Source: Tepidiforma flava (GTDB lineage Bacteria; Chloroflexota; Dehalococcoidia; Tepidiformales; Tepidiformaceae). From it: 64,000 bases of DNA. The DNA is taken from contig NZ_CP115149.1 in NCBI RefSeq assembly GCF_027594505.1, positions 1,148,812-1,212,811 on the forward strand, read 5' to 3'. Below are positions 12,219-24,896 of the stretch, piece by piece. How positions within the stretch are numbered: the stretch's first letter is position 1; each line of letters opens with the position of its first letter. The notes under the pieces are model-generated. The model saw only the letters and a program-made list of their open reading frames with translations, searched no databases and was not told where the DNA came from. Made by a program: the position numbers and the translations under genes.

Positions 12219-14422
12219 ATGGCCCAGCTCCTGTATCGTCTCGGCCGGTTCGGCTACCGCCGCCGGTGGCCCGTCATCGCCGCATGGGCGCTCATCCTCG
12301 CAGGCGCCGTCGCCGCGGGCATCGCCTTTTCCGGCCCGCGCGAAGATTCGTTCACCATCCCCGGCACGGAGTCGCAGGAGGCGCTGGACCGCCTCGGGCG
12401 CGAATTCCCGGAGGCGAACCTGGCCGGCGCCTCTGCGCGGGTCGTGATCGCCGCGCCCCCGGGGCAAACGCTCGATGACCCGGGCGTCCAGGAGCGGGTG
12501 CAGGCGCTCGGCCGCGACCTTGCGCAGCTGCCCGGTGTGGCCTACGCGCTGGACCCCTTCGCCGCGGGCGCCATCAGCCCCGACCGCCGGGTCGGCATCG
12601 CCGAGGTTTCGTTCGTCGAACCGGCGGGCCAGCTCGATGCGGCCTCGAAGCGGGCGCTCGAGGCTGCGGTGGAGCATGCGCGGGCCGCAGGGCTGACGGT
12701 GGAGGTTGGGGGCGATGCCCTGCGGGAGTTCCACGCCGGCAGCACGGGCGAAATCCTCGGCGTGGCCGTCGCGGCCGTCGTCCTCTTCCTCAGCTTCGGC
12801 TCGCTGGTGGCAGCCGGCCTGCCGCTCATCTCGGCATTCACCGGCGTGGGCATCGGCTCGCGGGCATCGCCGCTCTCTCGGGGTTCACCAGCATCGGGAC
12901 GAACACGCCGACGCTCGCGATGATGCTCGGGCTCGCCGTGGGCATCGACTACGCGATGTTCATCCTCTCGCGCTTCCGGCACGAGGTCGCGAGCGGCCGG
13001 AGCCCGGAGGAGGCGGCCGGCTGGGCGAACGGCACAGCCGGCTCGGCGGTCGTGTTCGCGGGGCTGACGGTCGTCATCGCCCTCTGCGGCCTCGCGGTGG
13101 TGAACGTCCCGCTGCTCACCCAGATGGGGCTCGCCGCCGCCGCGACCGTCTCGCTCGCCGTGCTCATCGCGGTGACGCTGCTGCCGGCCCTGCTCGGCGC
13201 GGCGGGCCGGTTCGTCGCCGGCCGGGCTGTCCGCGACCCCGAATCGCATGGCGCCGGGGCCGCGACGGGGCTCGCCGCCCGGTGGGCCGGGCTCATCACG
13301 CGGCGGCCGTGGGCAGCGGCCATCGGCGGCATGGCGCTCCTCGGCATCGTCGCCATCCCCGCGCTCGATGTGCGCCTCGCGCTGCCCGATGACGGCATGG
13401 CCGCGCCCGGCGCCACCCAGCGGAAGGCCTACGACCTCGTGAAGGAGGCGTTCGGGCCGGGCTTCAATGGACCGCTCGTCGTCATCGTCGATGCCGCCGG
13501 GGGCGAACCGGCGGCAGCAGGCGAGGCTGCCGCGGCGCAGCTCCGGGCGCTCCCCGGCGTGGTCGCCGTGAGCCCGCCGACGGTGAACCCGGCAGGCACG
13601 CTCGCCCTGCTGCGCGTCATCCCCGCCGGCGGCCCGGCCGATGCGGCCACCGCCGACCTCGTCCACGCCATCCGCGCACAGGCGCGGGAAACGGGCACAA
13701 GCCTCGCCGTCACCGGGCAGACGGCCATCCAGGTCGACTTTTCGGAACGGGTCGGGGCGGCCTTCCTGCCGTACGTCGGCGTCGTCGTCGGGCTCGCGCT
13801 GGTGCTCCTGTTGCTCGTGTTCCGCTCGGTGGCGGTGCCGGTGAAGGCGGCGGCGGGCTTCCTGTTCACGATCGCTGCGACGCTCGGCGCGGTGGTGGCC
13901 GTGTTCCAGTGGGGATGGCTGGCGCCGCTGTTCGGGGTCGACCAGGAGGGGCCGATCCTCAGCCTGATGCCCATCTTCCTCGTCGGCGTGCTCTTCGGCC
14001 TGGCGATGGATTACGAGGTGTTCCTCGTGACCCGGATGCGCGAGGAGCACGTCCACGGCCTGGGCGAACGCGAAGCGATCGTCTACGGCTTCCAGCACAG
14101 CGCGCGCGTGGTGACGGCGGCGGCGCTCATCATGCTCTCGGTGTTTGCCGGCTTCATCCTCGCGAGCGAAACGCTCATCAAGATGATGGGGTTCGCGCTG
14201 GCGCTGGGCATCGCGTTCGACGCCTTCATCGTGCGGATGACGATCGTCCCGGCGGTGCTGGCGCTGCTGGGCCGGGCTGCCTGGTGGATGCCGGCGTGGC
14301 TCGAGCGCCTGCTGCCGAAGGTCGACGTGGAGGGGACCGGCCTGCGCAACGGCGACGCCGCGAGGGCGTACCGGGCGGAGAACGCGGGCGTGGCGGGGCC
14401 AGCCGGCCAGCCCGGCGCCTGA
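12219..14422 (+). pseudogene. MMPL-family RND transporter, interrupted by a frameshift
   Basis: Together the two frames encode a roughly 734-residue MMPL/YdfJ-type exporter: a first membrane helix (WPVIAAWALILAGAVAAG), an extracellular domain, a helix bundle with LGLAVGIDYAMFILSRFRHE, a second extracellular domain, and a second bundle with LFGLAMDYEVFLVTRMREEH. The first frame runs correctly to GVGIG (12857). The family sequence then resumes one frame away as AGIAALSGFTSIGTNTPTLA. One missing base between 12857 and 12858 (GGC-TCG for GGC-GTC-G) explains it. No slippery heptamer is present. It is either a real inactivating deletion or a sequencing error. GGAGG precedes the ATG. It lies downstream of the SDR gene. 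Confidence 0.9.
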
Positions 14423-15082: not shown

Positions 15083-15161
15083 CCTCGAGCGTGCCGCGGC
15101 GCATGGCGCTGGCGCCACCGCGCACAAGGGCACGGCTGGTGCAGGAGGGAGGCAGCCAGCC

Positions 15162-18100
15162 TCAACCGGCGAGCACGCTGGTGAGAACCTCCCTGGCCAG
15201 GGTGCGGTCGAGCATCTCGTGCGCGTCCTGGTTCCGGTAGGAGCGCAGGCAGCCGTAACACGAGCTGTGCTCGCCGCAGGTGCACTCACACACGCGGATG
15301 GCTTCTCTGATGACCTCCTCAAAGCGTTGGAATGCCTCCTTCGCAAGGCCGGCGCCGCCGGGCACCTCGTCGTAAATCACGAAGACCGGGTTCCGGCTGT
15401 CGGACGTGTACACGAGGCCATTGATGTCGCCCGCGCGCACCTTGAGGGCTCGCCGCGCACCCTCGAGGAGCGCCGCCAGGACCGAGGCGCGGAGGCTTTC
15501 ATCCCTGGGTTCGACGTCCAGGTGAGGGAACTCGAACTCGGCGATATCGGACGCAAACCGGTGCCCGAGATGAACCTTCTCGACCTTCCCGCTGCACTCA
15601 CGTGGCGATACCGGATTTCTGTGTTTCCAGCTCTCATCCTTTTTTGACCCGCCCGGGTGAGCGGCGCCACAATCGGCACAAAAGCGGAAGCCGCGACCTC
15701 TCGCGTCATTGACGACCGCCAGCCAGCCGTTGCGCGCATAGCGGCCCAGTACCGTCGTCCTGCCCCGCAGTGCGGGCAGCGGCTTTCGCGGCTCCTGGGC
15801 CTCAGATGCGCCGCCGATTTCGTGGAAGAGCACGCGGCTGGCATAGAGCCGCGGGGGCGGGTCGTCACCGAGGCTGGAGTTCGGCTGGCCCGCGACGAAC
15901 CCGTACACCGGCTCGACCATCCGGTCGCCTCGTACGGGGCCACCACACCGCGGGCAATCTCCCCCGGTCATATCGGGGCTTGTGTAAAGCCTGTTGCAAC
16001 CAGGGCAGCGCCAGTATTCGCGCTCCGGCAGCCCCTTGCTCGGCAAAAGGCGAAGGCCAACCGAACGCCACACCTGCTTCGCGGCGACGACGGCCGAACC
16101 CGGGGCGTACTCGGAAACCGCGATCCGCAGGTCGCGTTCGAGCTCGAGCTGCCGGGCCACGGTGGAGTCGAGGTGCGACGTCATCAGGCCGACGACATCG
16201 ACCGGGAAGCCATACTTGGGCAGCACGCCGCGGCTCGCCAGCAGGTTGATGAGCCAAGCCTCGCGGATAGTCCGGAGCACCCACTGGTACCGACGGGCGG
16301 CCGTGTAGTTGGCGCTGTCGGATGCCTCCCTTTCCAGCTGCCGGAAGAGCTCGACATCGGCACGGTACTGCTGCTCGGCCAGGGCGAGGGGCGATTTGTT
16401 CGCATCGTCCGACGCGAGGCGGTCGGCCCATTCCCAGCTTTCGATGCCGAGGTCGCTCCACAGCTCCTCCGGGACGATACGCTTGAGCTCGTCCTGGAGT
16501 TCGGCCTCCCTGCTTTCGAGGTAGCGGCGAAGCAAGTCGCAAGGCAAGCCTTCCCATTTCGAGGAACCATCGGCCGCCTCGAAAAATTCGTGGGCGAATC
16601 TCGGCCAGACGGAGCCATCCGGGCCGGCGATCTTTCGCAAGAAACGCGACATCGCCACGGAATGGACGTGGCGCCGGACGATCCGTTCGTTGCGCGCGGG
16701 GATGCGCGGCGCAGGCACGTTCCCGGCGACCCAGTCCTCGGCGCGCTCAAACGCCTGTCGGTCGTGGGGCCGCAGCTGAGCAAAGGTGACCACCAGGCTC
16801 GTTGACGACAGCCGCCGGCCGACGCGGCCTGCGCGCTGGACGTAGTTCGCCGCTGTCGGCGGAACGTTGCGGAGGAAGACCGCTTCGAGTTCGCCGACGT
16901 CCACCCCAAGCTCGAAGGTCGTCGAGCAGCTGAGGACGTTGATGTCGCCATCCGGCTTCACGAAGCGTTCCTGCACACTCCCCGCCTGGCTCGAGGCCCA
17001 CTGGGCGGTGTGTTCTTCCGCGACCAGCGGGCCGGCCGGCGGCTGCTCGTATAGCCGCCGGTAGTGATGGCTGTCGTCAAAGCCGTCGAACGGATGAGCG
17101 GTTCCGCGGCAGCGGAACGAGGGGCAGAACGCCGCGCACGGCCCCGTGCTCCACCGTGCCGCAGAGGTCGCACCGGAACAGGTCGGACGGGGGGACAAAC
17201 TCCCAGGAGTCGAACCGGAGCTGGTAATACTGTCCGACCTGCCGCCCCGAGGTTCGTTCGATTGCGCCAGCAAGCGGCCCGCCGGGCTTCATCAAGTATT
17301 TCCAAAGCCCCTCGAGCGAGCGCACCGCTGTCTCCCTGCGCTCAGCGGGGTCCATCCCGGGCGCGGTGCGCTCGAGCACCCGGACGAGGAGGTCGACCCG
17401 GGCGTTCGTGCCGGAATCCCGGCCGGGCAGCCACCCTTTCAGAATGAGGTTGGGGCGGCTCTCCCCGCCGCGCTCCCGGAACCCGACGGGCTTATTCCGC
17501 GGGTTGAACACGGGGTCGGTCAGACTCACCCCGCTGGGGACGGTGACCACCTGGTCATCGAGCAAGGTCCGCAGGAGCGCCTGGATGAGCCACCACGCCT
17601 CGTTGGGGGTCAGCGACCATGGTGCCTGGAGGAGCGCCCGGGGCGGCTCCCAGTCCTTCGGCCTGGCGAGGCGCCGGGCCGCCAACCCCACCCCGGCGAG
17701 GGACTGCCGGGAATCGATCGCCGTCAGCTCAGCCAGCACCCATCCCTTCAGCGTCTGGGAGAGTTTGAGCGCGTCGCCGTTGGAACCGGGGAACCCCAGC
17801 TCGCTCGCCAGCGGCTCCATGTAGGGAACGAGACTTTCCAGCCGGACGCCCAGGCCCCGTGCATCATCCCATGCCTTCCGGAGCGCCTGGAGCATGACCC
17901 GGCGGCGGGCGGCCCGCCCATAGGTCCGCTCGAGGTACGGCGCGAAAAAGGCGGCATCCTGCCGGCTGTCGGCAAAACTGAGGAAGCGCGGACGCCTCTC
18001 GCCCCGGGGGAGCGCATCGAACAGCGCTGATGCGACAACGGCCGGCGGGGCATCGGTGCCGAGCCTCAGGCGGCGGAGTCCCCCCTGGCTGCTCGGGGCG

Positions 18101-19863
18101 TTGCAATTGACGCAGCGGTAGGCGAGGCTCTTGGTCCGCTCGGCGATCTTCGCCGTGACAACGTTCGGCTGGGCGCAGTCGCAGCTGTTGCCCTGGACTT
18201 CACGGGCGCAGCCGAGACAAAACGCGAGAAGTTTCTCCGGTTCCGGCGGGGCGAGGAGCTCACCCTCCACCGTGGGCGCGGGTTCATCGTCGTTATCTTC
18301 GTTCGGCTCTGGCCCGGTTGCCGGCGCCAGGTAGCGAATCGCCGGCACAGTGTCATCGAGGTCGCTCGCCCGCACGAGGCGGTCGCGGTTCTCACCGTCC
18401 GTTTTCCGCTGCCCCCGGAGGTGCCACTGGCTGCAGCGCCGGCAGATGGCGAGCTCCGAGACCGGGGCATCCTCTCCGCACTCCGGGCAATGGCGCTGCG
18501 GTTCGAGAAAGACGCGCGGGAGACCGTCGGCGTGGCGGCGAAGGCAGACGTCGACGCTTTCGGGCGACCGCACGAACGTGTGGTACCGCGCCCGGAGCGC
18601 CGGCGCACCCGTCTGGGGGTGCTGCTCACTGCCCAGGCGCTCGATGAGCCGCACAGCGAGCGTCTTCCGCGGCGGGTCGGAGATCAGGCGGGCGATCGCG
18701 TCGAGTGACAGCGGCCGCTCGGCGAGGCCCGTGACGACCGCCTGGACGCGCGGGTCGGCGAGCAGCCGCTCAAGGGCTCCCGGGGAGCGGTCATCCGCGG
18801 CGGCTTCGAGGTCGACCTCCTCACCCGGTAGCGGCAGCACCGGGGGCTCAACCTCCGCAACAATGACGTCCTGCCGGCCCGGGTCGGCCGCTTGCCACTC
18901 GAACCGGAGGCCAAAAAGGTCGTCCGCGAACCGGGCGATGGCGTCCCGGTCGCCAGGCCCGCCGGCGGTGGCTGACGTGGCGATGCCCTGGATGCTGCCG
19001 GGACCCCGCTGGACGCGGTCGAGCAGGCGCCGGAGGAGCATGCCCATCTCCATGCCCATGGCGCCGTCGTAGGTGTGGACCTCGTCCAGCACAACGAACC
19101 GCCAGCCGAGCTCCCCCTTCGGGTCAAACAGCGGCGAGTCGGTCGGCCGCAGGAGGAGGTACTCGAGCATGGCGTAGTTGGTGAGGAGGATGTGGGGCGG
19201 CGACGCCTGCATCTCCTCGCGGCCGAGGAGTTCGTTGGGGAGGATCGGCTCGTCCGGGAACCAGTTTCGAAGCGCCTGTTCGCCCTTCCGCCGGCTATCC
19301 GGCGTCTCTCCCGTGTACCGCCCGAAGGTGATGTCCGGCGAGTGCTGGAGGAGTTCCCGGAGCCGCCGCAGCTGGTCATTGGCGAGCGCGTTCATCGGAT
19401 AAAGCAGCAGGGCGCGGACGCCCGGCCCGAGCTCACCGCGCTCCTTCTGCCGGAACAGCTCATCGAGGATAGGGATAAGAAAGCTCTCCGTTTTCCCGCT
19501 GCCGGTGCCCGTCGCGACCACGATGTTGCGGCCCTGGCCGGCAGCCTTGCGGACAGCCGATTCCTGGTGCGCATACAGGGCCCGGTCCACGCCAAACGTG
19601 TCGCCGAAGTTTCGCTCCAGCCATTGGCGCGAAAGGACACCCTCTTCGACGAGCTGTCGGATTGTCGCGCCGGCGCGGTACCGGGGCGAGGCCTGCACGA
19701 TGGGGCCCTTCACGAGGGGACTCTTCAGTTCCTCAATGGCCCGCGCCATCGCCGCATTGATGTTCGCATCGTTTGTGTGAAGCGTCGTTCGCAGGTAGCG
19801 AAGATAGGTGGCGGCGATGGCCTCAGTGGCTGCGATAGGGTTCAGTTGCTCTGCTGTCTCCAC
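15162..19863 (-). pseudogene. large DEAD/DEAH-box helicase with DUF1998-type C-terminus (DruE-like), frameshifted
   Basis: If repaired this encodes about 1566 residues. The N-terminal superfamily 2 helicase has VVATGTGSGKTESF (Walker A, about 121-125), LLYPMNALANDQLRR, VVLDEVHTYDGAMG (Walker B), and later SCSTTFELGVDVGELE and YVQRAGRVGR (motifs V/VI). The C-terminus ends with VFVIYDEVPGGAGLA and CTCGEHSSCYGC, the DUF1998 Cys cluster. The frame breaks near 17127: CDLCGTVEHGAVRGV is in one frame and CPSFRCRGTAHPFDG in the next, splitting one zinc ribbon; one extra base explains this. GTG at 19863 has AGGAG upstream and overlaps the upstream gene by 22 bp. Pairing with a ~1180-residue protein resembles Druantia type III; that assignment is inference. 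Confidence 0.8.
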
Positions 19864-22800
19864 TCGAACTCCTGGCAACAGAGGATTTCGGCAAGCATGA
19901 GGTCACGTTCATAGACAGGGAGGAGGAGCCGGGCAAGAGCCGCGGCGACGTCGTCGAGCTCTCTGAACCGCTCCCGGGGCAGGACCGCCTCGCGCCGGGC
20001 GACCAGGCGGCGCGCCGCAGCCGCGACCAGGGAGACCCGGCACAGGAACGCCCACGGGTACTGCTCGCGATGAACCTGCCGGGAATCAAGACCCAGCGCC
20101 GGCAGGAGCTTCACGACCGCCTGCTCGAGCTGGGGCGCGAGGTTCCCATACTTGCGGATGAGCCGGTCGCGCTCAGGCTCCAGCTGAGCTGCCCTGCCTG
20201 CGAGGCCTTCCAGCGTTTCGAAGCAGGCGTTGAGCCAGCCATCCCGGTCGAAGGGCCGAGAGGGCACCGGGCTCAGCAGCGCCTTCATGGCCGCTATCCG
20301 AACCGGCTCCGGGCTGAATTCCGTTCCGCCGGCGCTGCCGACCTCAGGAAGCCCCCCGGGGCGGTCGGCGATTTTCGCGGTACGCCCGGAATCCCCACCT
20401 TCCGGGGCATCGTCTTCGGCGCCGTTGACCTCCGCGGACCCGGGAAAGCCGAGGAGGTCTGAGCACCTCTCGAAGGCCTGGGGGTCGACCGGGCACAGCC
20501 GCAGCTCGGCAAGCGCGCCCAGCGGCTTCCATAGCTGCCAGAGCCGCGCCCGCGCTTCTGCGGTCAATGGTGCGCCAGCGAGCGCCGGCGCACGGTCCAA
20601 CCCCGCCGCGACGAGCAGCGGCGCAGACTGGCTGTCGCCGGGGGTGACCGGGAGCGCTGTGATGAGCGTTTCGAGGTCTGCCGACGGAATCCGCGTGACT
20701 GCCGGGGCAAGCTCCTCCCAGGGCAATCGGAGGAGTTCGCCGCCCCGCCCTGTGGCACACGCACGGAATACGAGCCCCAGGAGTTCGCCGGCCTGGTGCG
20801 GCCCCATCCCGCGGACAAGTTCGCGAAACCGGGTATCGCGCGAGCTCATGTCCCGGTCAAGGAGCAGGTCTTCGAGCTTGCCCTCAACCGTCGGCGGGAG
20901 GCCCTGGACGCGGCGCCGCAGCTCTTGCAGGCTGCCTTTCCACGTCTCGACGGGGTCACCAAGCGGTGTCGTGCCCGTCCAGGGGTCGTCGACGAGCAGC
21001 TCGAACCGGTAGCGGCCTGGGGACATCAGCCGGAAGGTCGCCCGGCAGACTCCACCCGTGCCGACCTCGGCAGAGGCTGTCTCGGCGTCTTCCCACGGCC
21101 GTGCGAGGCTCGTGACGCGCGCCTGCAGGTTCTCCGGGGGCTTCCGCAGCTGCCACTCGACCGTGGTGCCGTCCCCGGTATCGAGGAAGTTCAGCTCGCC
21201 AACCTCGATGCGGCGGCGGACCCGGGCGACCTCCGCGCTCCCGAGGACTTCGTCGCGCCTGCCGATGAGCTCGAGGCGCAGGTGGCCCGTCGTGCTGATT
21301 TCGCCTTCGAGCGTTGTGAGGTAGCTCGCGAGCTCGAAGAGGACCGCCTGCCCGGCCTTGACCTGCTCCTGGAGCAGGTTGCCGGCGTGGCCGTACAAGC
21401 GAAGCGCGAGGCGGTGACCCGTGGGGTTCTCCGCGCGCAGGCGGGGAGCGGAGCGGGCCTCGAGCTCCTCGACGACGAGCGAAAGCGGGGCATTCGCGGC
21501 CGAGCCCCAGGCCCCGTGGCCGGTCCACCACCACTGGACGACGGGCAGCTTGAGCAGCGCGTGGACTTCCCGGCCAGTCCGGCTGTCGAGCACTCTGAAT
21601 GGGATGCGGCCGTTGCGGTTACGGTCGAACAGCTCCCACCCGTGTTCGACCGGGGCGTGGGCGTCGCCCTCCTCAAGGACTTCCATCCCCTCCCGGGTCC
21701 GGGCGATGACCCGCGCGACCGGGAGGTCGGGCCCGGCGACCCCGACAGCCTCCTCCGCGCCTTCGAAGGCAATATCGGGAAGGAGCGCCAGCCGCCGGCG
21801 CAGGCCCTGCCCCAGGGGCCCGAGCAGTTCGATATTCCATTCACCAACGTCGTGGCCCGGGATGAGGTTTTCGAGGCGGACCCGAAAGCCCCCACCGGGC
21901 TCGGGAGAGGGGTCGAGGTCTTTTGCCGGCATTTCGATGTGCGGGCCCTCACGGTCCGACCACGTGCGGGCGACCCAGCTTTCGGGCAGACCTTCATGCG
22001 CGCCCGCGCCTGAGCGCGGCGGAAGCACCACCGTCGGCAGCCGGGATTCGAACGCGAGGACGGCATCGGTCATCGGCGCGAGATAGGGCGGCAGCTCAGG
22101 AGTGTCGAGATACGCCGCCTTCGGCTGCTGGATGCGCCTGAGGCGAAACTCCTCCCGTCCAGCCACGAGGACGAGCTCATCGACGGACTGTTCAACGACG
22201 AAACGGCGGACAGTGAGGTCCGGCCAAGCCCCGAACGGTTCGCCCAGGTCTTCCTTCGCGCGCAGTTCCGCGCCGCCTGCCAGCACGATGGCGGCGGACG
22301 CAGGCATGACGATGTACCAGTCCGAACCGGAGAGGTAGCGCTGGTCGGCGAGGACCCGGCCGGAACGGGCATCGAAGACAAGATACGGCCGGTCCACTGA
22401 CAGCCCGCCGAGAGAGCGCGTCACGGTGCGCCCATTCCCAAGGGAGCAATCAACCCGCAGGCTGCTGAAGGGCCGCTCGACTGCGACACTCTCGGCTGCG
22501 CCGAGCCGCTTCCAGGGTGGCGTGTAACCGACTTCAGCGATGCGGTCCCCCGAAAAGCTCACCGCCCACTTCGCCGACGGGTCGTCAAGATACGGCAGCT
22601 CGAGCTTGACCTGGACGAAGACTGGGTCGAACCGCAGCACCGGGGGCCGCCAGGAGGTCCGCTGCCGGGGCCGCCCCCGGCCCAGGCCGCCGGCGGCGCG
22701 CTGCCGCACCCAGGCGACAATCTCATCCTGGAGCCAGCCCGGCAGGAGCTTTGGCGGCTCCTCTCCGGCGCCGGCGGCACCCGCCACATCGAGCGACCGT

Positions 22801-23378
22801 TCGAGGATATCGCGGGCCACGCGCCCGCCGTGGACGATGAATCGCTGAAGCGGCCGCGGCATAACCTGCTGCCGCCGGGCCACCAGCTGCTGGATCTCCT
22901 CCGCCGTGGCTCCGTACCTCGAAGGGTCCTCGACGCTCGGCCAAATGACGCGCTCCATGAAATGGGGCACGAGTGCGCAGGGGATGAGCGAGTGCCCCAG
23001 GATCGGTGTCAGAAATCGGAGCGCGCCTTCCTCGACGAGGTGCGCGAAGGTCGGCAACCGGTTCTTCCGAAGGTAGCCTTCGAACCACTGGCCGAGCGCC
23101 GACTGGTCGCTCATGTCGAACCGGCGGAGACCGAACGCCTCCTTCAGATGCGGCCAGAAGGCGTCGCCGTCGTACCAGAACCGCGCTACCGCAACGATGC
23201 CCACGGCAAGGCAGTGGGGCCACCGGATCTCGGCAGCTCCGAGTCCAAGGCGGCCGAGGTTTCGGCACAATTCTTCGGCATTGCGCTGCTGCAAGGTGAC
23301 TTCGCCGAGCAGCTCAACCCCGGCGACCCTTGCCCGCAGGTGCCGCTCTGCTTCCGTGAGAACTGCGTCGATGCCCAT
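19842..23378 (-). CDS. large defence-associated protein, DruH-like candidate
   Basis: This 1178-residue cytoplasmic protein has no recognised catalytic motif. Residues about 1-230 are helical, with LGQWFEGYLRKNRLPTFAHL, then RFLTPILGHSLIPCALVPHF, then LQRFIVHGGRVARDILERSL. The middle (about 260-850) is beta-rich and looks like several Ig-like or sandwich domains (VQVKLELPYLDDPSAKWAVS; SPGRYRFELLVDDPWTG). The C-terminal third is helical. The helicase gene starts inside its last codons, so both are one operon. Size, order and partner fit DruH of Druantia type III, but I cannot confirm homology by eye. ATG at 23378 is chosen over an upstream extension to 23543; its ribosome site is weak. Confidence 0.7.
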   Translation of the reverse strand: MGIDAVLTEAERHLRARVAGVELLGEVTLQQRNAEELCRNLGRLGLGAAEIRWPHCLAVGIVAVARFWYDGDAFWPHLKEAFGLRRFDMSDQSALGQWFEGYLRKNRLPTFAHLVEEGALRFLTPILGHSLIPCALVPHFMERVIWPSVEDPSRYGATAEEIQQLVARRQQVMPRPLQRFIVHGGRVARDILERSLDVAGAAGAGEEPPKLLPGWLQDEIVAWVRQRAAGGLGRGRPRQRTSWRPPVLRFDPVFVQVKLELPYLDDPSAKWAVSFSGDRIAEVGYTPPWKRLGAAESVAVERPFSSLRVDCSLGNGRTVTRSLGGLSVDRPYLVFDARSGRVLADQRYLSGSDWYIVMPASAAIVLAGGAELRAKEDLGEPFGAWPDLTVRRFVVEQSVDELVLVAGREEFRLRRIQQPKAAYLDTPELPPYLAPMTDAVLAFESRLPTVVLPPRSGAGAHEGLPESWVARTWSDREGPHIEMPAKDLDPSPEPGGGFRVRLENLIPGHDVGEWNIELLGPLGQGLRRRLALLPDIAFEGAEEAVGVAGPDLPVARVIARTREGMEVLEEGDAHAPVEHGWELFDRNRNGRIPFRVLDSRTGREVHALLKLPVVQWWWTGHGAWGSAANAPLSLVVEELEARSAPRLRAENPTGHRLALRLYGHAGNLLQEQVKAGQAVLFELASYLTTLEGEISTTGHLRLELIGRRDEVLGSAEVARVRRRIEVGELNFLDTGDGTTVEWQLRKPPENLQARVTSLARPWEDAETASAEVGTGGVCRATFRLMSPGRYRFELLVDDPWTGTTPLGDPVETWKGSLQELRRRVQGLPPTVEGKLEDLLLDRDMSSRDTRFRELVRGMGPHQAGELLGLVFRACATGRGGELLRLPWEELAPAVTRIPSADLETLITALPVTPGDSQSAPLLVAAGLDRAPALAGAPLTAEARARLWQLWKPLGALAELRLCPVDPQAFERCSDLLGFPGSAEVNGAEDDAPEGGDSGRTAKIADRPGGLPEVGSAGGTEFSPEPVRIAAMKALLSPVPSRPFDRDGWLNACFETLEGLAGRAAQLEPERDRLIRKYGNLAPQLEQAVVKLLPALGLDSRQVHREQYPWAFLCRVSLVAAAARRLVARREAVLPRERFRELDDVAAALARLLLPVYERDLMLAEILCCQEFEWRQQSN

Positions 23379-23663
23379 AGGTTCCGGGCGCAAACAGTAG
23401 CCCGCGGCCGCGCCCCGCCGCAATAGCGACAAGATTTGTCGTGATTGGGCGCACCCCTCCGCCGGCGCGATGACGCCCTCGAGCAGGCGACAACCACCCG
23501 CGTACCCGCTCGGCGCTACTGCAGCGATGGACAGGTGCGGCACGTGCTCGCCGACACCTCATCGGCGAGTCAATTGATGGCTTTCAGCGGGACGCATATG
23601 ACAGCCCGGGGACTCCTCCGCCACAATTCGGCCGAATACCTGCACCTCCGGGCGAGACGTCAC

Positions 23664-24896
23664 ATGCCCGTCATCTTTCGAAAAACACAAGCTCAGCGCC
23701 ACCCAAGCGAGCCGGCCGCGATTTCGCGAACGCACGCGGCGGTTATCACGTGCGCCGCACTCTGCCTGCTCCCCATCCTGTCCGCCTGTGCTGACCGGGA
23801 GCCCGCGCCAAACCAGTCGGCTGACGTGGACAGCCTCCGTGCGACGGTGGCCGCCCTCCAGACGGCAGTCGTGACGCCTACCCCAAGCCCGCCTACCCCG
23901 CAACCAACGGAATGCGGCCAGCAGGACATCGCCCGAGCAAGCCGCGCGGTGGTGCGCATCTTGACCGAACAAAGCTCCGGGTCCGGGTTCTTTGTCAGTC
24001 CCAACGTGCTCGTGACGAACCGCCACGTCGTCGGCACCAGCGACGCCGTGACCATCGAATGGCAGGACGGGCGCCGCTCATCGGCAAGCGTTTACTACGT
24101 CTCTCCCGACCGGGACCTGGCGGTTGTGCTCAGTGCCGAGCCTTCATTTGAAACCCTTACGTGGGCCGAGGCGGGCGCGGTCCGTCTCGCCGACGAGGTC
24201 TACGGAATCGGCTATCCGCTGGGCGCGAGGGGGCTTCCAGTCGTGACGCGAGGCATCGTCTCCCGTTACGGAGAAACATCGGCTGGCCGAATCGTGCAGA
24301 CTGACGCCGCGCTCAACCCCGGGAACTCCGGCGGCCCGCTCGTGGACCGTTGCGGGCGGGTGGTAGGAATCGTCACGTGGAAGTTCACCATTGCCGAGGG
24401 CATCGCCTACGCGATTGCAACCGCCGACGCGCGGCCGAGGGTGGAGCCGGCAGTCGAATTCGTGTCCGGGCGCGCCCGGAGCCCGCTGTTCTCTGACCCG
24501 TTTTCGTTCTGTCGCTGGGTCGACACCATCGACTGGCCGGTGCACCAGCAGCCTCTCGGCATCTACTATGCGGGCGACCCTTCGCCCTTCGGGGGACAGC
24601 CCGGGGAGGAGGTCGTCTGGCGCTGCTGGGCCGGGAAGGTGCTGGGCTGCCGGGTCATGGCCAGTGCCGGGCCATGCATGAAGGCGAACACGAGCCGGGA
24701 GCCATCCCCCGAACTCCTGGCGTGGTGCCGCGCCAATCCATGGACGTCCCCGCCGCTGGCGGTGACCGGCCACAACTCCATCTTCCGCTGGGAGTGCTCC
24801 GGTTCGAACCCTATCATCGCGGAGCAGCTCATCCCGGACAGCAGCATCGACGGGCTGGGGTATTTCCTGGGCCCCTGGTTCGAAATCCGCCCCTAG
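23664..24896 (+). CDS. trypsin-like serine protease lipoprotein with Cys-rich C-terminal domain
   Basis: This 410-residue exported protein has a signal peptide ending in the lipobox LSAC (Cys42), then a short helix and a Thr/Pro linker (TPTPSPPTPQPT). Residues about 84-270 form a trypsin/HtrA-like domain with His121 (VTNRHVVG), Asp151 (DRDLAVV) and Ser222 (NPGNSGGPL). No PDZ domain follows; instead there is a ~130-residue Cys-rich module (WRCWAGKVLGCRV, PCMKANTSREPS, AWCRANPW, FRWECSGSNP). Upstream in-frame Mets exist (23577, 23598), but 23664 gives a clean signal peptide. It is divergent from the DruH-like gene and ends in a CTAG shared with lon. Confidence 0.85.
   Translation: MPVIFRKTQAQRHPSEPAAISRTHAAVITCAALCLLPILSACADREPAPNQSADVDSLRATVAALQTAVVTPTPSPPTPQPTECGQQDIARASRAVVRILTEQSSGSGFFVSPNVLVTNRHVVGTSDAVTIEWQDGRRSSASVYYVSPDRDLAVVLSAEPSFETLTWAEAGAVRLADEVYGIGYPLGARGLPVVTRGIVSRYGETSAGRIVQTDAALNPGNSGGPLVDRCGRVVGIVTWKFTIAEGIAYAIATADARPRVEPAVEFVSGRARSPLFSDPFSFCRWVDTIDWPVHQQPLGIYYAGDPSPFGGQPGEEVVWRCWAGKVLGCRVMASAGPCMKANTSREPSPELLAWCRANPWTSPPLAVTGHNSIFRWECSGSNPIIAEQLIPDSSIDGLGYFLGPWFEIRP

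Follow-up and report, generated by a model that had tools for sequence, protein, structure and literature searches.

A stretch of 64,000 nucleotides from the genome of Tepidiforma flava (contig NZ_CP115149.1, phylum Chloroflexota), referred to here as the window, carries on its reverse strand a two-gene locus encoding a DruH-like protein and a DruE-like helicase. The druH-like gene (19842..23378, minus strand) encodes 1178 amino acids (aa) from its ATG and was characterised from the list of open reading frames (ORFs), by profile comparison, by alignment and by a structure model. It is followed on the same strand by the druE-like gene (19878-15162), with an overlap of 37 bp between the ORFs 19842-23378 and 17077-19878. 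This second gene is read in two pieces: an upstream one of 933 aa (17077..19878, minus strand), which shares its frame with relatives to about position 17122, and a downstream one of 703 aa (15162..17273, minus strand), the two ORFs overlapping in different frames. The frame break lies within a zinc ribbon (17110..17140, minus strand), and the intact product would be about 1570 aa long. The coordinates and description of the ORF pair and its frame break agree with those of the original prediction, made from the DNA letters alone, which had proposed a Druantia type III-like pair as a Chloroflexota member or a sister system. Our results support that proposal and sharpen it: the locus is very probably a horizontally acquired Druantia type III unit of the mostly nuclease-less (III-B) branch. 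It is a further representative of an already known type of system, not a new kind.

The druE-like pieces are those of a YprA-family superfamily 2 (SF2) helicase with an MZB/DUF1998 domain, as expected of Druantia III and as detected by both PADLOC and Pfam. Pfam finds DEAD in the first piece, and Helicase_C and MZB (MrfA Zn-binding, DUF1998-type; residues 600-676 of the downstream piece) in the second. The motifs present are a Walker A GTGSGKT, DEVH, a SAT motif, QRAGRVGRR in the RecA2 part, CxxC clusters in each piece and the MZB cysteines. The best PADLOC model on the upstream piece was DruE3 (284.2 bits), and the downstream piece scored 316.5 bits with DruE1 and 298.2 bits with DruE3, versus at most 28 bits for DrmA and 78 bits for DpdJ. 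These profile scans gave no hit to a separate MrfA model, and the best NCBIfam model, TIGR03817, reached 67 and 82 bits on the two pieces against a cut-off of 874. The DruE-like nature of the helicase, as originally proposed, is thus upheld by the profile searches. Its shorter length, also part of that proposal, is explained by the position of MZB: only 27 residues follow to the protein end, leaving no room for a C-terminal nuclease as judged from Pfam and the ORF end. In type III-A DruE, as described in PMC13192584, two PLD domains lie downstream of the helicase.

Phylogenetic trees were built for each helicase piece, with 103 leaves each; they contain one ARMADA reference, no Druantia I or II and not the published III-B representative GIH50614.1. 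Five DruE taken as III-A, picked by their YjiT/STY4851 partner and in four cases cut at the locus end, formed a clade of their own with support of 1.0. The T. flava helicase grouped with the Chloroflexota relatives L033, L008 and L034 (support 0.97-1.0 for three- and four-member clades), although deep supports were low in the tree of the N-terminal piece. The III-B features observed are the lack of a nuclease and a place outside III-A, in trees that lacked the published III-B representative; the locus has neither the PLD nuclease region of III-A nor a place among its references. A helicase that stops shortly after its zinc domain, lacks the PLD nucleases and falls outside the III-A clade fits type III-B.

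The partner protein consists of a helical N-terminus (residues 1-230), an all-beta middle (245-800) and a helical C-terminus with the motif YERDLMLAEI, which contains D1159. It matched no PADLOC, Pfam or NCBIfam model up to an E-value of 1. When the partner family was compared profile to profile (hhalign) with five Pseudomonadota DruH, 602 columns were aligned with 14 family sequences (E 3.3e-6) and 707 columns with 33 (E 1.1e-6), whereas three reversed profiles, ten column shufflings and two comparisons with a helicase profile, run as controls, gave E 0.1-1. These comparisons of sequence profiles support the 1178-aa protein as a distant DruH, in keeping with the DruH-like partner first suggested, so that the DruH adjoining the helicase is recognised by distant homology only. 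The Ig-like beta domains of the same suggestion are consistent with the all-beta stretch at 245-800 of the predicted structure, which is of medium confidence (pLDDT, the predicted local distance difference test, 69.8). On an Ig-like or phage baseplate J-like fold, as in DruH, a fold search with that model listed only weak matches of Ig type.

The pair occurs well beyond T. flava. Partner homologues were detected by profile in 14/400 sampled Chloroflexota genomes and in 5/38 genomes of the family; the T. flava genome is counted in both samples, giving 17 partner-carrying genomes in all, with the phylum inferred. In 15 of these 17 a DruE-like helicase lies at most 400 bp from the partner, indicating that the pairing is not due to chance. 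The exceptions are G423, with the partner in two pieces and no adjoining DruE-like gene, and G382, where the contig is only 3936 bp long. The order is partner then helicase throughout, except in G219. Among named genomes, a helicase profile confirmed at least 582 relatives in 591 candidate stretches. Within the best 80 of these 582 loci, which were the ones analysed, the partner profile matched 52/80 at E ≤ 1 and 48/80 at E < 1e-5, and in all 48 the partner lies directly upstream of the helicase; they come from Actinomycetota, Bacillota, archaea and others. A Methanomicrobiales partner (L147:1-3732) gave weak matches to the profile of the Chloroflexota partners and also to that of classical DruH, and is a possible bridge between two DruH branches.

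An experimentally studied pair offers a point of reference. In Mycolicibacterium smegmatis, DruH MSMEG_1253 (1132 aa) and DruE MSMEG_1254 (1667 aa) are reported in PMC13316683 to protect against many phages; according to the same source, DruH by itself is toxic and is neutralised by DruE, and defence is lost in D1108A and some other mutants. Activation is attributed there to Gp25, a minor tail protein, and the pair keeps phage DNA from circularising and replicating. In the genus of Mycobacterium sp. ENV421, 20/297 genomes match its partner protein, two of the matches being short fragments. In three mycobacterial pairs (L181-L183) the helicase is about 1661-1668 aa long and the partner about 1100-1130 aa, and the hidden Markov model of the Chloroflexota partner gives these partners 240-259 bits. 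The published residue letters were compared at their published positions on these look-alikes rather than on the M. smegmatis sequences themselves. DruH letters were found at 6/11 positions in the partner of L181, 3/11 in L182 and 4/11 in L183, and DruE letters at 5/8 in the helicase of L183 and 4/8 each in L181 and L182; in the wrong-protein control, DruH letters reached at most 4/11 on helicases and DruE letters at most 3/8 on partners. In the L181 helicase, A292, A1016 and C1516 fall in the expected SAT, QRAGRAGRR and MZB motifs. Judged on these features, the mycobacterial pairs of this broad two-gene family resemble the tested DruH-DruE. D1159 of the 1178-aa protein aligns with position 1108 of the L181 partner, with D in 23/34 rows of the alignment, and this conserved aspartate ties the T. 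flava protein to a position needed for defence in M. smegmatis.

The T. flava locus lies within DNA that is missing at the same site in three congeners. Compared with these, 15088..24889 is a 9.8-kb insertion between a dsbB-like gene and lon; the same flanks are 522 bp apart in G421, 1743 bp in G226 and 2274 bp in G423, and lie on different contigs in G422. The site is variable, G226 and G423 carrying other DNA or genes there, one of which, judged by eye, we take to resemble a PIN-domain toxin. A separate copy of the pair is present in G226, elsewhere in its chromosome (L008:8533-13208). No repeats bounding the insert were seen. GC content at third codon positions is 0.81-0.84 in the pair, and 0.80 (trypsin-like gene), 0.85-0.87 and up to 0.97 in the nearest neighbours.

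Besides the pair, the insert contains only a gene for a trypsin-like (Trypsin_2) protein (23445..24896, plus strand), which diverges from the druH-like gene and is probably a passenger. It was rejected as a third component on account of its orientation and of what we assume to be a lipoprotein-like start; recurrence elsewhere was not looked for. Of the window genes around the locus, the ten that were scanned are unremarkable (lon, peroxidase, transporters and so on).

This gene content bears on whether the helicase could belong to another YprA-family system: DISARM, Dpd, ARMADA, TALON or Druantia I. The slightly higher score of DruE1 over DruE3 on the C-terminal piece speaks for such an origin, but the insert has no further components of those systems and the partner aligns with DruH, which makes it very improbable. 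Druantia I, where DruA-D stand beside DruE, was rejected because DruA-D are absent from the insert. DISARM was rejected on the DrmA score and because MZB lies within the helicase gene itself, not in a separate DrmB; Dpd and ARMADA were likewise rejected as the home of the locus, on helicase profile scores (DpdJ at most 78 bits) and insert content. The NERD nuclease, TPR-CSD and TBP genes given for the TALON operon in PMC12458937 are absent from the insert, and TALON was rejected on that ground.

With the Druantia III assignment preferred, the break in the druE-like frame calls for explanation. The two pieces are collinear with relatives, and four of these (L008, L033, L034 and L041) read C..C......A.RGVCP..RC.GT in one frame; the alignment of both pieces to the four shows that they form one gene. 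In T. flava the frame changes between 'FRCDLCGTVEHGAVRGV' and 'CPSFRC', near 17122-17127, which confirms the place first proposed (a shift near 17127 in the zinc ribbon). Unless it is an artefact, the break would leave the locus as read non-functional. Past the break, 654 codons stay open, and the ratio of non-synonymous to synonymous differences (pN/pS) upstream and downstream is 0.45/0.42 versus L033, 0.55/0.55 versus L034 and 0.68/0.62 versus L041. Codons that are still open and equally constrained argue that the break is either young or an artefact.

We give about an even chance to an assembly or sequencing error, with the locus intact in the cell. Broken frames are no rarity in this assembly: tblastn surveys of genes with at least 60% identity, covering 264 kb, found 6/122 frame-disrupted genes in T. 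flava versus G226 and 5/117 in the reverse direction, counts that include some start-site and opposite-strand artefacts. At that rate, we estimate the chance of a break in either genome for so long a gene at roughly one in six. A second gene close by, encoding an MMPL transporter 2 kb from the locus, also seems split in two frames (12219-12923 and 12920-14422); in relatives the homologous gene is mostly one ORF of some 700-810 aa. Genome completeness is 91.7% for T. flava (single contig) versus 98% for the single-contig G226 and G423, an argument for error that is weakened by the 92% of G421 and 94% of G422. On the other hand, a tblastn survey of the window with the same limits found almost every conserved gene intact when compared with relatives (17/17 versus G226, 22/22 versus G422, 17/18 versus G423 and 22/25 versus G421, two of the three ORFs flagged in the last case lying opposite a longer window ORF), which counts against an error.

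Alternatively, and at somewhat less than an even chance, a real frame-shifting mutation has inactivated druE, and the DruH-like gene persists in a decaying locus without a working partner. In the congener G226 an intact druH-like gene adjoins a druE-like gene that is likewise in two frames, broken elsewhere in the gene, and G423 holds only the two pieces of a druH-like gene. Elsewhere, the druE-like gene of G401 is unbroken and that of G403 has an early stop about 120 bp from the contig end. The open, constrained codons mean that any such mutation must be recent, and the reported toxicity of lone DruH in M. smegmatis is an argument against druH persisting stably on its own: should the break be real, the combination of an intact druH and an interrupted druE conflicts with that toxicity. 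Phase variation by slippage at the break appears most unlikely. The same gene is broken in T. flava and G226, but the places differ, and no homopolymer longer than four bases occurs within 17090-17160 (no tool-based search for tandem repeats was made); this candidate was rejected for want of a long homopolymer. Of the three possibilities first raised, an inactive, phase-varied or mis-sequenced locus, phase variation has thus dropped out, and recent mutation and sequencing error both stand.

The broken druE-like frame, which is unbroken in relatives such as L034, is one of several points that weigh against the assignment to Druantia type III. PADLOC DruH models match 0/33 members of the partner family, the 1178-aa protein included, at E 0.01, although they do match Escherichia coli YjiT as a positive control; a search with DruH profiles, proposed originally as a check, therefore gave no match with these models, and the DruH homology is detectable by profile-profile comparison of the sequences only. 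The solved DruH structure 9tud is not among the 50 fold matches listed for the model of the 1178-aa protein. Agreement with the published residue letters is partial, at 3/11 for the partner of L182 and 4/11 for that of L183, and of the 11 published DruH residues the 1178-aa protein keeps the published letter at D1108 only. Genomic context, finally, favours defence within limits. For 92 ORFs flanking 14 Chloroflexota pairs (T. flava excluded), 329 PADLOC families match at E ≤ 1e-10, versus 42 for 92 ORFs elsewhere in the T. flava genome; since many models match one protein, neither figure is a protein count. The scan covered ORFs of 150-1200 aa, and its control is one stretch of the T. flava genome. 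Among the 25 families listed for each set, restriction-modification, NERD, PglX, BrxA and mads models were commonest in the flanks and methyltransferase models in the control.

Seven of the 17 Chloroflexota genomes, from six genera and two families, encode a DruH-like protein whose reading frame runs on into an RpoD-type sigma factor. The fused proteins are L010:15360-19433, L036:8280-12320, L037:8298-12323, L038:8365-12399, L039:8886-14036, L040:9396-13433 and L042:7342-10755. Sigma regions 1.2, 2, 3 and 4 are present in the two fusions scanned, L038 and L119 (the G352 protein); L039 matches the sigma profile in part only, and L042 is without roughly 200 N-terminal residues. The sigma part occupies the place of the D1159 terminus in the 1178-aa protein. 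C-termini vary in the family, being of a helical D-L-x-x-A-E type in T. flava, its family relatives and many actinomycetes, and Cys-containing in other Chloroflexota. The PADLOC MzaA model matches the sigma part of the G279 protein, and MzaA of a defence system is described as a sigma factor in PMC9523054. Conceivably, although we consider it rather unlikely, the DruH of type III-B is built as a modular sensor whose C-terminal 'bait' or output module can be exchanged; the sigma module would then act as an integrated decoy that senses when a phage takes over the host's RNA polymerase, through anti-sigma proteins for instance, or would couple DruH toxicity to transcription. The sigma fusions would allow a direct test of what DruH senses.

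Two side observations concern sigma factors near related helicases. In two Streptomyces loci (L112:4886-6634 and L140:5007-6737, both minus strand), a separate sigma-70-type gene adjoins a DruE-like helicase and a large partner, the latter without a match to the DruH-like profile. In an Anaerolineae locus (L154:1110-9803), the protein encoded upstream of a DruE-like helicase is 2897 aa long and contains type ISP restriction-modification domains together with RNA polymerase alpha C-terminal-domain-like domains and a sigma region 4.

By analogy with the M. smegmatis and E. coli systems, from which every functional step of the following scheme is inferred, the DruH-like protein would be an infection sensor with Ig-like recognition domains, which might be activated by a structural protein of the phage, for example a minor tail protein. 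DruE would restrain DruH, and the unleashed DruH-like protein would be toxic. DruE may load on phage replication intermediates at their 3' single-stranded DNA, and on infection the pair would block phage DNA circularisation and replication, leading to an abortive-like death. The locus extends an experimentally known DruH-DruE defence to Chloroflexota. As the 2023 PADLOC models do not recognise DruH of the III-B branch, counts of two-gene Druantia systems are probably too low.

Compared with known systems, the locus shares with DISARM DrmA, Dpd DpdJ and MrfA the YprA-family helicase core, and with MrfA the MZB zinc domain (Pfam); it differs from DrmA and DpdJ in far lower profile scores and in the lack of fitting operon partners. 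Druantia III-A of E. coli and other Pseudomonadota, whose DruH belongs to the YjiT or STY4851/ECs_5259 family (PMC13192584), has the same operon layout, a distantly homologous DruH and, as described there, the same helical, beta-rich, helical arrangement of DruH. By contrast, the T. flava DruE has no room for PLDi/PLDa and belongs to another clade, and its DruH is missed by the PADLOC models. Druantia III-B, as presented in PMC12458937 (representative GIH50614.1), agrees in its YprA-like helicase, its zinc-binding modules, most often no C-terminal nuclease, and its separation from III-A; unlike here, DruH is not named in the text of that source, where Chloroflexota are named for TALON. From the M. 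smegmatis Druantia III the locus differs in its broken druE-like frame, and the Mycobacterium partners L090 and L091 are just 18-19% identical to the 1178-aa protein. It resembles that tested system in its two overlapping genes in the order druH-druE, in protein lengths (DruH of 1132 aa there and 1178 aa here, DruE of 1667 aa and about 1570 aa), in a DruE for which PMC13316683 gives DExD/H, helicase C and DUF1998 domains and names no nuclease domain, and in the conserved position of D1108.

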